Source: Bacteroides sp. 519
GTDB taxonomy: Bacteria; Bacteroidota; Bacteroidia; Bacteroidales; Bacteroidaceae
Direction: 5' to 3'
NCBI RefSeq assembly: GCF_010500955.1
Contig: NZ_QVMJ01000003.1
Location: 159,890 to 223,889, forward strand
DNA: 64,000 bases
Below the pieces are notes generated by a model. That model saw only the letters and a list, made by a program, of their open reading frames with translations, had not been told where the DNA came from and ran no database searches. How positions within the stretch are numbered: the first letter of the stretch is position 1; each line of letters begins with the position of its first letter. The translations under genes were made by a program, and so were the position numbers. Positions 58,401-64,000 of this stretch are shown here, piece by piece.

Positions 58401-61400
58401 TTACTCGATTAGTACAAAGCCTGCCCATTTTGTAATCTTGCTTTCTGGCTCCTTCCGGAATTTTCTTTGCGTATTTGCAAAAGCCCCCCGCAAAGAAGAA
58501 CCGGGAATCCATTGTTTATAGAACTCAACCATAAATTCCTGAGCTTCTTTATCGTTTACACTCCAAAGGGTGGTTATCATATTCTTAACACCTGCCAAAC
58601 GGAAAGCACGCTGCAAGCCATAAGCACCTTCATTGTTCATAATATCTCCCTTTGCAGTATTACAGGCAGAAAGCACAATTAGTTGAGTGCCGGATAGGTC
58701 AAGGCTGGATATTTCGTAGGCGGTGAGTACGCCATCTTCGGTTGCGTCGTCGGATAATTCGCTTGAGGTCCAGAAACGGTTGACTCCTGAAAAAACCATT
58801 CCCGAACGCATTAGTGGATTGCCGGATGCTTTATATGTGTTCTCGTCATCCGGAGCCAACCTAAAGTAAAAACCATGAGTAGAGACATGGATAATAGGGG
58901 GCGATTGTGAGGATAATGCTTTGAAATTACTTTCTGTTGCCTCATTCTTGGTATAAAGATTTGTTTCCCAACCCTTTGAGGTAAATAGTTTGGCAATGCT
59001 ATCTACTTCCATGCCCGAAAACCGAAGATCGCCAAATCCCTGCCCCCTGTCCATATCAAGGCTATCTACAAGAGAACGCATTAATGCTACATGTGTTTTT
59101 TCTTGCTTGAGTTTTTCTAATGTATAGTTTGTTTGTGTATAATCCATACCACCAAACAAAGCTATAGGCGGTTCTACTTTCAATAAATTTCCCTTGTTGG
59201 CAGATTTAATTTCTCTTGTGGATAATACATGATGAAGATTGTACTTATCTATCAAACAATTGCCTTGCGTATCTTTTAGGGCAGCAAAAGGCACATGGTG
59301 CAACAGGCCGGCAGATGCAATATAAATATCTGTTACACCCTGCAATTCATTATCTAACGATTGCCATATTAATGCATATAATCGATTTACCGAATCGGGA
59401 AGGGCTGCTTGTAAATCGGGCTCGCTGCAACAAGAAATTATTTTAGGTGATGTGTATTCCGGACGGATTAAAAGCACATAATAATTTACCTGATTACCGG
59501 GTGATTTGGCAAAGGCAAACTCTATGGCAGCTTCCCCTTGCTGAAGAGAGTTTTTTACATCCTGCCACGATTGGTTGTATTCGTTCTTAAATATCCGGTA
59601 TTGCCCCGATATACGAGTTAATTCTTTTTCTATCAGTTGCATTTCGGTTGTTAAGCTATCTACTTCTTTAATACGTCCACGTACACGGTTTAATATAATT
59701 TGTTCCTTTAGGTGTTTAATTTCATTCCACCATTTAATTAACTCTTCGTTGTTGCTTTTCAAAATAGCGTCTCTGGTTTGGGTAGAAGAGGTTAGTAACA
59801 GGTTTTTATGAAACAACTCTACATCGTAACACAACTCACTCACCGCTTTGCTATCCCTATTACGAAAAGAGAATCTTTTAATTGTATTGAAAACAGATTG
59901 GCGCGAGTTAAGAAACAGTTCTTTATCATCGGCTGGTAAAAATGTAAATCCATCAAAAATATTTTCTTTTACCGACTCCAATACTAACCGGAAATAGGGC
60001 ACTGCATCTTCGGGGTTATTTGCACCAATTGCCAATGCTATATTTTGTGCCAATAGTTTATAAACAGTATGTTGCTTTCCCAACTTAATATCATTCACTA
60101 TTTCCCAACCTTCCATAAAACACAACATTGCCTTCTGGTATTTTCTTTTTGTATAGTAGTATTCGCCTGCCTGATTCAATAATGTTGCATAAGCAATACT
60201 TTTTGTACCATACTTTGTTTTTATAGTTTTAACCAGAGAGGTTATTTCTCTCTCTCTTACATGTCCAGGGCGAGTAGAATTTAAAAGGCTCAGGTATTTT
60301 TCTGTAATTGTTATATAGGTTATATCTTTCTTACCCAAGTATTTCTTCTGAATCTTCCGGGCTTTGTTATAATGTTTTAAAGCTTGTTCTGTTTTATTTT
60401 TCTGCTCATATACTTTACCCAATGCATATATATTCTTCACATCAGATTGTTTTTCTTTTTTTGAACCTACTATCTTCTCAAAATGTTCTTCGGCTGCATC
60501 ATAATTGCCTATGGTCATATAAAAATTCCCGATTGAGCTATATAATTCATAGCTCATTGTTTCCAGTTGTTGGGTTTTTGCCAGTATTTCCTCGGCTTTG
60601 CTATAATTCTCCAGCTCCATATATGCCTCTATTAAACAAGCCAAATAATCAACATATTGATAATCAACAAGAGTAACTTCTGGATTAGGTATTGAGTTTA
60701 ATACCAATATAGTATCTTCGAAATAAAAATTATCCAAACATGCTTTTCCTAATAAAAACATAGCTGTATGCCAATCACTACTGTTTGTTAAGCCCTCTTT
60801 CTCGTAAATCAAGATGGCTTCTTTTAAATAGTCTATATGGTCTTCGGGAATACTGCCGGTTATACGCATATACTCCTGGCATTTCTTTACCAAAAAATAA
60901 GCATGCTGACGCTGTTGAGCAAAGTATTTTGCAGCAAATTCCAATCCTGGGTTATATTCAATAAGCACATCCTTATCTTTTAAATGTGCCGAGAAAGAAC
61001 GATTTATCTTCATAGCCAGTTCTAAGTCTATTTCCGGCTTTTTATTTATCCGCAGCCAGGCTTTATAGGCTTTGCGCATAGCTATATCGCCCCTTTCTAT
61101 ATCCAGATAAGCCAAAAACGGTTCCCATAACAATGAAATATTTTCACGACTGTACCTTGGAAATCTTTTTCTAAACTGATCGGATCGCTTCAACAGTTTT
61201 TTTGCTTGCATCACTTCGCCATGCTGCGCATGAGATTTACTTTCGTTTATTAAAAAACGAGCATGGTCGAACAGGGTTTCGTTAGTAAGGAGTTTTTTCA
61301 GCTTGCTTTCTCCCACACTATCAAACTGATTGAGTGCATTGATTAATTCTTCTTCAAGCCTTAAATCGGGTTCGTTTATCAGTATGTTCTGAATTTCAAA

Positions 61401-61703
61401 GAATATTTGTATGGCTTCCTCGTCTCGGTCTGTAAGTTTATGCGATACATAAAGCTCAAACAACAATGTAACATTTTCAATACTATGCTTAGGGAATTCT
61501 TTCCTTATTTTATTGGCCTCTTTGAAAAGATTCTCTGCTTCTTTCTTTTCATTGTAATTGAGGCTTAAAGTGCCTTCACGAATTAATTTTTTGGCATGTT
61601 CAAGTGGCGAATCCTTTGGCGGATAAACATAATCCGACTCTGCATTTTGTGCACATACAGAAAGTGGGAGAAAGATGATCAGGAAACAGATTACTTGTAT
61701 CAT
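58401..61703 (-). CDS. Exported TPR-CHAT protease-like protein
   Basis: CHAT domains are caspase-like (clan CD) cysteine proteases. This 1,100-residue chain starts with a signal peptide (about 1-19, IIFLPLSVCAQ). Many TPR-type helical repeats follow (about 50-520, for example YSSIGNFYMTIGNYDAAEEH), then a coiled region (about 640-700) and the CHAT domain (about 780-1100). The dyad His is in IIHVSTHGFYF (about 940) and the Cys in LIVLSACNTAKGD (about 1010); both are present. It is last in the operon with sigma factor, anti-sigma and caspase-like genes. Targets are unknown. A leader on a CHAT protein suggests a periplasmic site of action. Confidence 0.9.
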   Translation of the reverse strand: MIQVICFLIIFLPLSVCAQNAESDYVYPPKDSPLEHAKKLIREGTLSLNYNEKKEAENLFKEANKIRKEFPKHSIENVTLLFELYVSHKLTDRDEEAIQIFFEIQNILINEPDLRLEEELINALNQFDSVGESKLKKLLTNETLFDHARFLINESKSHAQHGEVMQAKKLLKRSDQFRKRFPRYSRENISLLWEPFLAYLDIERGDIAMRKAYKAWLRINKKPEIDLELAMKINRSFSAHLKDKDVLIEYNPGLEFAAKYFAQQRQHAYFLVKKCQEYMRITGSIPEDHIDYLKEAILIYEKEGLTNSSDWHTAMFLLGKACLDNFYFEDTILVLNSIPNPEVTLVDYQYVDYLACLIEAYMELENYSKAEEILAKTQQLETMSYELYSSIGNFYMTIGNYDAAEEHFEKIVGSKKEKQSDVKNIYALGKVYEQKNKTEQALKHYNKARKIQKKYLGKKDITYITITEKYLSLLNSTRPGHVREREITSLVKTIKTKYGTKSIAYATLLNQAGEYYYTKRKYQKAMLCFMEGWEIVNDIKLGKQHTVYKLLAQNIALAIGANNPEDAVPYFRLVLESVKENIFDGFTFLPADDKELFLNSRQSVFNTIKRFSFRNRDSKAVSELCYDVELFHKNLLLTSSTQTRDAILKSNNEELIKWWNEIKHLKEQIILNRVRGRIKEVDSLTTEMQLIEKELTRISGQYRIFKNEYNQSWQDVKNSLQQGEAAIEFAFAKSPGNQVNYYVLLIRPEYTSPKIISCCSEPDLQAALPDSVNRLYALIWQSLDNELQGVTDIYIASAGLLHHVPFAALKDTQGNCLIDKYNLHHVLSTREIKSANKGNLLKVEPPIALFGGMDYTQTNYTLEKLKQEKTHVALMRSLVDSLDMDRGQGFGDLRFSGMEVDSIAKLFTSKGWETNLYTKNEATESNFKALSSQSPPIIHVSTHGFYFRLAPDDENTYKASGNPLMRSGMVFSGVNRFWTSSELSDDATEDGVLTAYEISSLDLSGTQLIVLSACNTAKGDIMNNEGAYGLQRAFRLAGVKNMITTLWSVNDKEAQEFMVEFYKQWIPGSSLRGAFANTQRKFRKEPESKITKWAGFVLIE

Positions 61704-61731
61704 TGGCTTTTACTCTATCAACACAAACGCA

Positions 61732-62388
61732 TTACGGAAATTCTCTCATATTCTCTTTTACGTATTCGTACAATGTGTCTATCAATTCCGAACGATGTTT
61801 CAAGAATACTTCGTTCAATGATATATACATATCATCTTCCCATATATTTTCAACCTCTTTACTTCGATTGATTGTATGATTAAGTATGTCTGCCATCCTA
61901 TTCATTTTCAGAACTTGGCATGCTTGTACTACAGCAGGAGAAAGAACGATATCTCCTTCCCACGATTCGTAATTGATCCATTCCATCAGTACTACAAATG
62001 GATATTCTATGGAACTAATTTGGGGACATTCCTTTTCCCAACAGAGCCAAAAGTCAAATGCATATTTTTCGTGAATTGCATGTAGTACCTTATCAAGTGC
62101 ATCTTCTTTATTTTTGTTTTTGAGTAAACATAGTTTTGTTATGCTATGCGTATCCATTTCAAAATTTTGGATTGCTACTCCTAAATCATAATTGGCTGCT
62201 TCAAGGTATTGAACTGCTTGTTCTGTATTCAATGATTGCTTTTGCATGAATGTGTTGATTAAGTTTTTCTTAAATCGAGATTCTGCTTCAGCAACATTTC
62301 CTGCTGATTCTACCAACAATTTTTCAGCCTGATTAATTCCAATTGGGATCTTTTTTCGTAGTATCTTTATTTCTTCCAAATATTCCAT
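61732..62388 (-). CDS. Protein with two UBA/EF-Ts-N-like helical repeats
   Basis: The 218-residue soluble protein is not a family I recognise. Two N-terminal segments resemble three-helix UBA/TS-N domains: PIGINQAEKLLVESAGNVAE (about 15-35) and QSLNTEQAVQYLEAANYDLG (about 50-70), each with the leucine/alanine spacing of such domains. The C-terminal two thirds are acidic and aromatic without motif. It sits 29 bp upstream of the CHAT gene and 43 bp downstream of the anti-sigma gene, so it belongs to the operon. A role as a protein-binding adaptor is inference only. Confidence 0.65.
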   Translation of the reverse strand: MEYLEEIKILRKKIPIGINQAEKLLVESAGNVAEAESRFKKNLINTFMQKQSLNTEQAVQYLEAANYDLGVAIQNFEMDTHSITKLCLLKNKNKEDALDKVLHAIHEKYAFDFWLCWEKECPQISSIEYPFVVLMEWINYESWEGDIVLSPAVVQACQVLKMNRMADILNHTINRSKEVENIWEDDMYISLNEVFLKHRSELIDTLYEYVKENMREFP

Positions 62389-62431
62389 TTGTTTGTACTT
62401 ATGTGTGTCACAAAATATTTTGAACCGGATT

Positions 62432-63187
62432 TCAAAACCATCTTTTTTGTTTTATCTGTTTTAACAAGTTATTTGCTTTACCGGCATACTCTCCTTCTTT
62501 GAGTTGCTCAAGTAGTTCAATGCTTTTGGCCTCGTTGCCTTCCTTTAAATGCAATAGGGCCAGGTACCATTGTGCATCTTGCACAAACAACTCGCCATTG
62601 GTTATTACATACTGTAAGATGGTTACAGCCTCGCTGGCGGCTCCGGTTTCTATTTTACAAACAGCATTGTAAAACAACACATCCTCTGAGAGATATGCTT
62701 TATCAACAACTGCAATTATGGGGTCGAGAAGTTTAGGAACCTCACTGTATTTTTGTTCTTTGTACAAATCAAGTGCTTGCTGTATATCTATTTTCTGTGG
62801 AATACTAAGTTGGGTACTACTACTCCGGCTATAGTCTTCTTCGTATGCAAGGGGGGCATAATACATGTCGTAAAGTTCGCCCGACGAATACTTGTTACCC
62901 AAACCAATATAGAACAGTAAGAAAATAGAGGCTGCTGCCAACAAACCAATCAGCGGCCTGATTCGCCGTTTTGTTGCTGCGGGTTTCTTTTTCTCGTTCT
63001 CCAGCATTTCGGCAAGTGCTTCCTCTTCATGTAAACGCTCTAAACTGTCGACTAGTGCTTGGGTAAACTCCAATTGTTCTCTGAATTTGGGTTCGTTGTG
63101 CAACAACTCCCGAAACAGTGTTTCTTCTTCGGCTGATAGTTCGTAGCGTATATAGCGATCAATAATTACTTCCCAATCTTTGTTCAT
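62432..63187 (-). CDS. Anti-sigma-like membrane protein with periplasmic TPR
   Basis: The cytoplasmic head (IDRYIRYELSAEEETLFREL, about 8-27) resembles the zinc-less anti-sigma helix bundle. A membrane helix follows at about 80-102 (IGLLAAASIFLLFYIGL), then a TPR-like C-terminal part (about 135-250, QKYSEVPKLLDPII, WYLALLHLKEGNEAKS). The start overlaps the end of the sigma factor gene by 4 bp, the usual arrangement for a sigma/anti-sigma pair. It would hold the sigma factor at the membrane until a periplasmic signal is read by the TPR part. Confidence 0.82.
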   Translation of the reverse strand: MNKDWEVIIDRYIRYELSAEEETLFRELLHNEPKFREQLEFTQALVDSLERLHEEEALAEMLENEKKKPAATKRRIRPLIGLLAAASIFLLFYIGLGNKYSSGELYDMYYAPLAYEEDYSRSSSTQLSIPQKIDIQQALDLYKEQKYSEVPKLLDPIIAVVDKAYLSEDVLFYNAVCKIETGAASEAVTILQYVITNGELFVQDAQWYLALLHLKEGNEAKSIELLEQLKEGEYAGKANNLLKQIKQKRWF

Positions 63188-63735
63188 AACAAGTCCTCCC
63201 TTTTAAGTTTTTCTTTTACGGTTAGTCGTATCTTCTCCATACAGGTCGACTTTTTGTTTTTGGCCACTTGTTCGCTTTTGTAGCCCATGGCCTGAGCTAT
63301 TTCTTTCATATTTTTTTCTTCCCAATAGCAAAGATTCAGCACTTCTTTACATGGACTTTTCAGCTTAGCAATCTGTTCATAAAGAATAGTATATTTTTCT
63401 TCTTTTTGATAAGAACCATCACAATAAGATTCTACTTCGCGTTCTAAATTGTTTGTAGATGGCTCTGCAAATCTGTCTTCGTGTTTAAAATGAGCCATTA
63501 GTTTGTTTTTGGCTATAGTAAACAGATAGTCTTTCCACGATTTTATCTGGGCATTTTTTAACTTAATGGCTTCTATCAAACTCAGAAAACTGTCTTGATA
63601 AATATCGTCCAATATATATGCATCGTAAAACCGGTATTGGCGTGCAATCGAGTCGAAGAACTTTTTCCTTAACATGTTGTATACCTCTTCCATTTTCTTA
63701 TTGGACTGCAACAGGTCATTTATTTCCTTATTCAT
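63184..63735 (-). CDS. ECF-type RNA polymerase sigma factor
   Basis: Region 2 is seen in DDIYQDSFLSLIEAIKLK and WKDYLFTIAKNKLMAHFKHE (about 45-80). Region 4 is seen in SPCKEVLNLCYWEEKNMKEI, AQAMGYKSEQVAKNKKS (about 130-165). The 183 residues fit ECF sigma-70 factors. It overlaps the upstream caspase-like frame and the downstream anti-sigma gene by 4 bp each (ATGA). The likely regulon includes its own operon, but no promoter for it is inside the window. Confidence 0.92.
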   Translation of the reverse strand: MNKEINDLLQSNKKMEEVYNMLRKKFFDSIARQYRFYDAYILDDIYQDSFLSLIEAIKLKNAQIKSWKDYLFTIAKNKLMAHFKHEDRFAEPSTNNLEREVESYCDGSYQKEEKYTILYEQIAKLKSPCKEVLNLCYWEEKNMKEIAQAMGYKSEQVAKNKKSTCMEKIRLTVKEKLKREDLL

Positions 63736-64000
63736 CTTCCTAACTTAAAGGTTTTGTGTTCAATAGTGCTTTCGCAATAAGGTGTTTGCTTTTCTTTAGC
63801 GCTTGTATAAATCTCGCTGGTTTCGATGGCCTTTATCAACCCTCTTACTGTATATCCTGTTGGGTTTTTGCTCAACAAGTTGTACAGCGCATAAGATAAA
63901 CGGCCATAGTGTATTCCTTTGGTTACTAGTTTGTATTCGCGGTTGGCCTCGTTGGCCTGGCAGGCCGATATTTCGGTTATTGGGGCCATCCGAGGATTGT
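63732..64000 (-). CDS. Caspase-like (peptidase C14) protein, C-terminal part, cut by window end
   Basis: The frame is open through the window edge (NPR before the first Met), so only the C-terminus is seen. The wording ITEISACQANEANREYKLVT followed by GRLSYALYNLLSKNP matches the end of bacterial metacaspase/caspase p20 domains, where the catalytic Cys sits in SACQ. The His would lie outside the window. It overlaps the sigma gene by 4 bp. The pairing with a CHAT protein means two clan CD proteases in one operon. Confidence 0.75.
   Translation of the reverse strand, partial: NPRMAPITEISACQANEANREYKLVTKGIHYGRLSYALYNLLSKNPTGYTVRGLIKAIETSEIYTSAKEKQTPYCESTIEHKTFKLGR

Follow-up and report, generated by a model that had tools for sequence, protein, structure and literature searches.

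What a caspase-type protease does in a gut Bacteroidales bacterium, and what switches it on, is the question raised by an operon at the end of a 64,000-nucleotide stretch of the Bacteroides sp. 519 genome (contig NZ_QVMJ01000003.1, positions 159,890 to 223,889; this whole stretch is referred to below as the window). The operon joins two caspase-fold proteases, a metacaspase-like protein and a TPR-CHAT protein, to an extracytoplasmic function (ECF) sigma factor and a membrane anti-sigma factor. To our knowledge, little has been established on what triggers bacterial metacaspases or what they do. The reading that we favour, with a probability just above one half (about 0.52), is that these genes constitute a self-contained, sigma-controlled protease module that faces the periplasm and mainly amplifies its own operon.

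Five open reading frames (ORFs) follow one another on the minus strand, in the order that had been proposed from the window sequence alone (the original prediction). Read 5′ to 3′, these are a type I metacaspase-like C14 caspase with predicted export (64655-63732; 307 aa; PF00656, 53 bits against a cut-off of 21.4), an ECF sigma factor (63184..63735; 183 aa), a membrane anti-sigma factor (62432..63187; 251 aa), a UBA-like protein (61732..62388; 218 aa; UBA_4/TAP_C, 27 bits) and a TPR-CHAT protease, likewise with predicted export (58401..61703; 1100 aa; PF12770, 196 bits against a cut-off of 24). The start of the sigma gene overlaps the caspase stop, and that of the anti-sigma gene the sigma stop, by an ATGA of 4 bases in each case, as had also been proposed. 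The window stops within the caspase gene, of which it holds the 3′ part (63732..64000); the remaining part was taken from the same contig, within a 19 kb locus designated L002 (positions 216000-235000 of contig C116 in G000, the window's genome), whose coordinates become window coordinates on addition of 56110.

Conservation of this arrangement was assessed by scanning a five-row caspase alignment against genome contigs, which gave 228 relatives, the best 80 of which were kept as caspase loci, all of them from Bacteroidota as far as they could be placed. Their ORFs were matched to small profiles made from loci of this analysis; five of the 80 (L040, L043, L045, L052 and L058) were also profile-building loci, and three genomes occur twice. 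The direct order caspase, sigma, anti-sigma is found in 47 of the 80 loci, where the CHAT gene lies downstream on the same strand (37), is divergent (3), lies upstream (2) or was not seen (5); a further seven loci have the sigma/anti-sigma pair upstream of the caspase and the CHAT gene downstream. Chance adjacency is ruled out by the frequency with which an ORF matching the sigma profile directly follows the caspase (48/80), compared with other, non-core ORFs of the same loci (3/816). Among the 69 loci with short caspases, sigma and anti-sigma genes are near the caspase in 54 and a CHAT gene is in the neighbourhood in 60; the 11 caspases of a longer class (>400 aa) have no sigma gene downstream. 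The coupling of a sigma/anti-sigma switch to a pair of caspase-fold proteases that each have a signal-like N-terminus is thus retained in relatives, as is the order of its first three genes. The idea of five genes as one conserved unit did not survive. The UBA-like gene occurs in none of the 80 other caspase loci and was detected in two of 100 genomes, its own and one close relative in which it is located elsewhere, and in two of 393 genomes across the order, its own and one weak match; it was therefore rejected as a core part and is regarded as a rare occupant of a variable slot between the anti-sigma and CHAT genes. The caspase itself is patchily distributed, with matches in 16 of 100 genomes, its own included and several of them weak.

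Some loci depart from the common pattern in other ways. In Bacteroides sp. MI.10_1 (L030/L043) a TAG interrupts the caspase frame, the sigma and anti-sigma frames are open and the CHAT matches fall in two ORFs. Three loci from Paludibacteraceae (L085, L087 and L109) have the core with no CHAT gene seen; similar exported proteins come after it, together with another caspase match that is distant. In Chitinophagaceae and Ferruginibacter (L096, L097, L107 and L114) a long caspase (659-734 aa) is directly followed by a CHAT protein of ∼1590 aa, and the sigma pair was not seen.

The completed caspase has its own signal-like N-terminus and both catalytic residues, H100 (HFSGHG) and C168 (DACHS), encoded beyond position 64000 and hence outside the window. 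Both are kept in 79 of 79 full copies, and the Cys also in two truncated ORFs that lack the part containing the His; conservation of the His is biased because it was part of the search pattern, in which the Cys did not lie. The visible 'SACQ' had been taken for the caspase active site, a candidate that we reject since its Cys, C232 (63960..63962), is conserved as C in 70 of 81 copies and replaced by A, S or T in 11, and the conserved dyad is H100/C168. The caspase profile matches yeast Mca1 (4f6o; E 3e-21), and in a second, weak stretch of that alignment the conserved C232 segment stands opposite LSGSKDNQ.

Comparison with type I metacaspases also bears on specificity and activation. These enzymes are described as Arg/Lys-specific and mostly calcium-dependent in the available sections of two reports (PMC4357240; PMC9622860), with S1 residue roles assigned to Asp95 and Asp211 of TbMCA2 (PMC4357240) and calcium binding to Asp198, Asp214 and Asp245 of CgMCA-I (PMC9622860). 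With columns matched by ourselves, the S1 acids correspond to D45, present in 78 of the 78 copies with a letter in that column, and D166 (81/81), and because they are kept the caspase should cleave after Arg or Lys. Two calcium-ligand columns are also aspartate throughout (D116 and D141, 81/81 each), whereas the third, seven residues after the catalytic Cys, is Arg175 (L002:8017-8025 region) in 80 of 81; calcium as the activator, our first reading, was dropped at this point. The position of TbMCA2 Cys92 is occupied by G, A or S. An Arg183-Gly184 pair beyond the catalytic Cys is invariant (81/81) and could be a self-processing site. The protein thus resembles yeast Mca1, TbMCA2 and CgMCA-I in its dyad, S1 acids and two of three calcium-ligand aspartates, and differs from them in being bacterial, in its predicted export and in the replacement of the third ligand by Arg175.

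The TPR-CHAT protein has a signal-like N-terminus by hydropathy and by eye, TPR parts whose length varies greatly among relatives, and a catalytic His943 (STHGF; 58875..58877) and Cys1014 (LSACN; 58662..58664), the same HGF and SACN residues that had been named from the window. Both residues are kept in the 73 of 73 copies that reach the two columns; the other five of 78, fragments and cut frames, do not reach them. A search of PDB chains with the CHAT profile gave no match at E 0.01. In 18 loci taken for anti-sigma relatives, a CHAT gene lies beside the sigma/anti-sigma genes with no caspase in the fetched stretch in 10, so that CHAT has the broader partnership with the pair, and the caspase seems to have been added to a CHAT/sigma/anti-sigma set.

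The sigma factor exceeds the cut-offs of TIGR02937 (55 bits; 42.9) and Sigma70_r2 (27.2 bits; 24), region 4 models score slightly under theirs (23.8 and 22.1 bits), and its assignment agrees with SigW/SigH structures. The anti-sigma gene product scores far below the cut-off of family model NF052375 (14 bits; cut-off 100). Its N-terminus is homologous to FecR proteins, which supports its assignment, as do a transmembrane segment and a gene that overlaps the sigma gene; sigma binding is predicted. A profile of 29 caspase-linked rows, searched in 81 genomes, matches the N-terminal part (∼100 residues) of other proteins, with frames mostly of ∼320-390 aa, and all four of these that were checked carry FecR and FecR_C, which suggests a cytosolic segment of FecR type. 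The predicted transmembrane segment spans residues 79-96 (62900..62953; hydropathy maximum from residue 79, model helix 80-95) and is followed by C-terminal TPRs. The structural model is a helical TPR protein (predicted local distance difference test score, pLDDT, 89) whose best matches are TPR proteins, and the best 50 fold matches listed are of TPR type, with none for the N-terminal segment alone. Families matched by the 29 members are likewise mostly TPR, one member matching zf-HC2 (E 0.0041), and their 20 listed families do not include the FecR periplasmic domain PF04773. The protein is thus like FecR of FecR/FecI signalling in its N-terminal ∼100 residues and unlike it in having a TPR periplasmic part in place of FecR domains; the operon also contains no TonB-dependent transducer. 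A loop 25 residues after the transmembrane segment contains an arginine, R121 in the window's protein (62825..62827), that is kept in 27 of 29 caspase-linked relatives, with Gly as the next residue in 26 and the Arg-Gly pair together in 24 of 29 rows; the window's protein has Ser in place of the Gly.

Control of the protease operon by the sigma factor, which had been proposed from the gene order, is now backed by a common promoter element. When the 7- and 8-mers of 49 caspase upstream regions were ranked motif-blind against first-order random sequences, AAGGTAA, AAAGGTAA and AAGGTAAC were at or near the top, and 16 of the 49 operons have the composite AAAAGGTAAC...TTTTT upstream of their caspase gene. 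The regions concerned (16/49) contain AAAGGTAA[ACT], aligned with a common AA and a T-run downstream to give AAAAGGTAACC-N4-AA-N7-TTTTT, which we read as resembling an ECF −35 element. This pattern, set after the sites had been seen, has 11 matches in 17,167 upstream bases and eight in the rest of 1.68 Mb. Presence of the motif tracks the sigma tree, with eight changes on 47 sigmas as opposed to 9 to 16 in 300 label shuffles. No paper tying a GGTAAC promoter to a sigma factor in Bacteroides was found in the literature searched.

A strict form of the pattern was detected in three of ten genomes scanned, all three with the operon, at four sites at the operon and four elsewhere. In the window's genome it occurs twice on the upstream side of the operon, once on contig C65 with full spacing and facing no obvious target, and once inside a gene on C95; G045 has it at the operon only, and G089 has one site at the operon and two others. 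No strict motif was found in G032 and G047, which have the operon and none upstream of it either, in G078, where the caspase is at a contig end and the sigma was not seen, or in four genomes that gave no caspase match (G001, G012, G021 and G030). The reversed pattern gave seven matches in four of the ten genomes and none in a separate scan, so that chance would account for the motif sites found outside the operon. Since the motif lies upstream of the caspase in the 16 operons, the main target of the sigma factor is most likely its own operon.

Taken together, gene order, conservation, the two dyads, the FecR-like segment and the promoter motif suggest how the module might work. At rest, the anti-sigma factor would hold the ECF sigma at the inner membrane through its FecR-like cytosolic segment, with its TPR part presumably in the periplasm. 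An envelope signal would cause the anti-sigma to let go, and the freed sigma would start transcription at the motif before the caspase gene. The caspase and TPR-CHAT protein, judged by their N-termini, would be exported, and the caspase would be expected to cut after Arg or Lys; an enzyme of this kind should be controlled mainly at the level of transcription. Anti-sigma made alongside would reset the loop. Export, sigma binding, specificity, trigger, feedback and outcome are all predictions of this scheme, and the resemblance to a regulated cell-death or envelope-damage response, seen in the original prediction, is likewise a hypothesis.

Several observations weigh against it. A nearby sigma/anti-sigma pair was not seen in 26 of the 80 caspase loci, 11 of which belong to the longer caspase class and some of which end at contig ends. 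The motif serves only part of the family, as the exact form is missing from 33 of the 49 upstream regions (two of them short), and in several operons it is followed by TATATTTG, a housekeeping-type element through which the operon may be read without the sigma as well. Off-operon sites are no more than chance expects, and a wider regulon may exist with looser sites. With Arg175 in place of the third ligand, calcium activation of the caspase is also doubtful.

A tentative alternative, which we hold to be possible and clearly the less probable, is that the proteases are the sensor and not the output: on a signal to its TPRs, the TPR-CHAT protein, the caspase or both would cut the periplasmic part of the anti-sigma factor and so free the sigma, with positive feedback, as in Craspase. 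There the same three parts occur together, and in the available text the TPR-CHAT protease Csx29 cuts Csx30, which inhibits CASP-sigma, a protease-to-sigma circuit being proposed (PMC10028731). The wider partnership of CHAT with the sigma/anti-sigma pair would fit, as would the near-invariant arginine of the loop and its frequent glycine, since these are compatible with a cut at P1-Arg. However, of 18 further anti-sigma relatives, with a caspase at one locus, 13 have the arginine and six have both Arg and Gly; the residue is kept family-wide, mostly without a caspase, and may thus be structural, which weakens it as proof of caspase cleavage. Moreover, the window's own protein has Arg-Ser, and the great variation in length of the CHAT TPRs leaves a common contact with the anti-sigma not evident.

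A more elaborate and rather unlikely form of this proposal would see the operon as a CRISPR-free, membrane-spanning counterpart of Craspase, in which the TPR-CHAT protein (joined in Bacteroidales by the metacaspase) would sense a periplasmic ligand with its TPRs, cut the anti-sigma at the conserved Arg of the loop beyond the transmembrane segment and free the sigma, whereupon a private promoter would make more of the proteases; slot effectors would be exchangeable, and Arg175 would make the caspase calcium-free.

The variable slot also bears on whether the locus is a defence or abortive-infection island, in which sigma-controlled proteases and exchangeable slot effectors would kill or arrest attacked cells. 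Between the first and last core genes, 54 extra ORFs were found in 25 of 61 loci, under a loose rule that took in some ordinary neighbours (L071 and L098) and with some ORFs from near-identical loci, such as L073/L075. Pfam assignments among the matches listed comprise eight trypsin-type, four SIR2_2, two DUF2971, one DUF4062, one Abi_2 and several TPR, and AbiH is found between the anti-sigma and CHAT genes in a locus outside the 80 (L034, genome G013). The slot is therefore variable and appears sometimes to carry defence-type genes, and the patchy presence of the caspase would suit such an island. Nevertheless, trypsin-like proteins account for eight of these 54 ORFs, and many of the remaining ones encode plain exported proteins. 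In addition, 140 of 635 flanking control ORFs (chosen at random, up to 600 aa) also match PADLOC, including AbiEi, BrxD, SngB and PDC types, so that enrichment of defence genes in the slot is not proven. In viral contigs neither a caspase nor a UBA relative was found, and phage records gave one weak caspase match. Plasmid matches (72 records) all have less than 60% identity and, among the names listed, belong mainly to Pseudosulfitobacter, rhizobia and cyanobacteria. We consider the defence reading improbable. That the caspase and CHAT proteins are non-toxic, stress-made processing proteases of an ordinary envelope-maintenance regulon is very unlikely, for although trypsin-like proteases are present in some loci and known Bacteroides ECF/anti-sigma pairs are linked to envelope stress or vesicles in the available sections of three reports (PMC9308784; PMC13088901; PMC13114119), patchy presence in the genus and few further promoter sites are unlike general maintenance.

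The sigma-controlled protease module that we favour is a variant assembled from known parts. It is closest in logic to Craspase, the type III-E system of Csx29, Csx30 and CASP-sigma, which, as far as the available text of that report goes, likewise encodes together a TPR-CHAT protein, an ECF sigma and a protein that inhibits this sigma. It differs in the added metacaspase, the FecR-related membrane anti-sigma and the signal-like N-termini of CHAT and caspase, and no cas-type family was found among the 14 ORFs scanned in the 19 kb locus, to which the search was confined. The original prediction had set the signal peptide of the CHAT protein against the cytosolic CHAT proteins of CRISPR-linked systems, a contrast in predicted export that stands; the parts list common to Craspase had been missed. 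In its pairing of metacaspase and sigma, the operon is closest to those of Asplund-Samuelsson (2012; PMC3501461), where a caspase homologue and a sigma-70 gene share one operon. The available sections of that report name Myxococcus and other Deltaproteobacteria, Ralstonia and Fibrobacter, and not Bacteroidales, for this arrangement and mention no anti-sigma, and 'CHAT' is absent from its main text, whereas the present operon is from Bacteroidales and has both an anti-sigma and a CHAT gene. The Bacteroides systems EcfO-Reo, Das-Dma and CirY-CirZ share the pairing of an ECF sigma with a membrane anti-sigma; in the same three Bacteroides reports, as far as their available sections go, Reo and Dma have a β-barrel reaching the outer membrane, unlike the 251-aa anti-sigma here, a helical TPR model with no barrel, and the word 'caspase' is absent from their main texts. 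No account of such a Bacteroidales caspase/CHAT/sigma set was found in the literature searched, outside which most subscription journals lie.

Upstream of the caspase, on the other strand, lies a gene for a 202-aa protein (L002 8649-9257), and in eight of the 80 loci a relative of it is divergent to the caspase. Residues 53-180 of its model (pLDDT 81) best match OmpR/PhoB-type winged helices, with a VIA Z of 9.1 to BaeR over 98 residues at 2.6 Å, a modest value close to what common folds give, and a best Foldseek E of 0.59; it may be a second regulator. It and the product of L002:11846-12370 are two winged-helix-like paralogues with no Pfam family, and the same domain ends longer proteins of 387-397 aa in other Bacteroidales. 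A direct repeat of ∼50 bases that carries the promoter motif flanks the divergent gene (L002 9269 and 8626, minus strand), the second copy lying directly past its 3′ end. Further along (L002:12760-18999, about 68870-75109 in window coordinates and so beyond its end), three radical-SAM proteins, two resembling SPASM-type maturases of ribosomally synthesized and post-translationally modified peptides and one of the B12-binding type, with most matches below curated cut-offs, accompany a YcaO-domain protein that is followed by a further ORF, radical-SAM-like by eye; these genes probably constitute a peptide natural-product locus.

In the operon itself, a gut Bacteroidales metacaspase comes with its own sigma factor, a defined promoter readout and a predicted exported protease pair, which makes its trigger and substrates testable. 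Such a system would tie TPR-CHAT proteases to control by a sigma factor in a setting other than CRISPR, and would suggest a more general protease/anti-sigma/sigma theme of which the Craspase circuit is one version.

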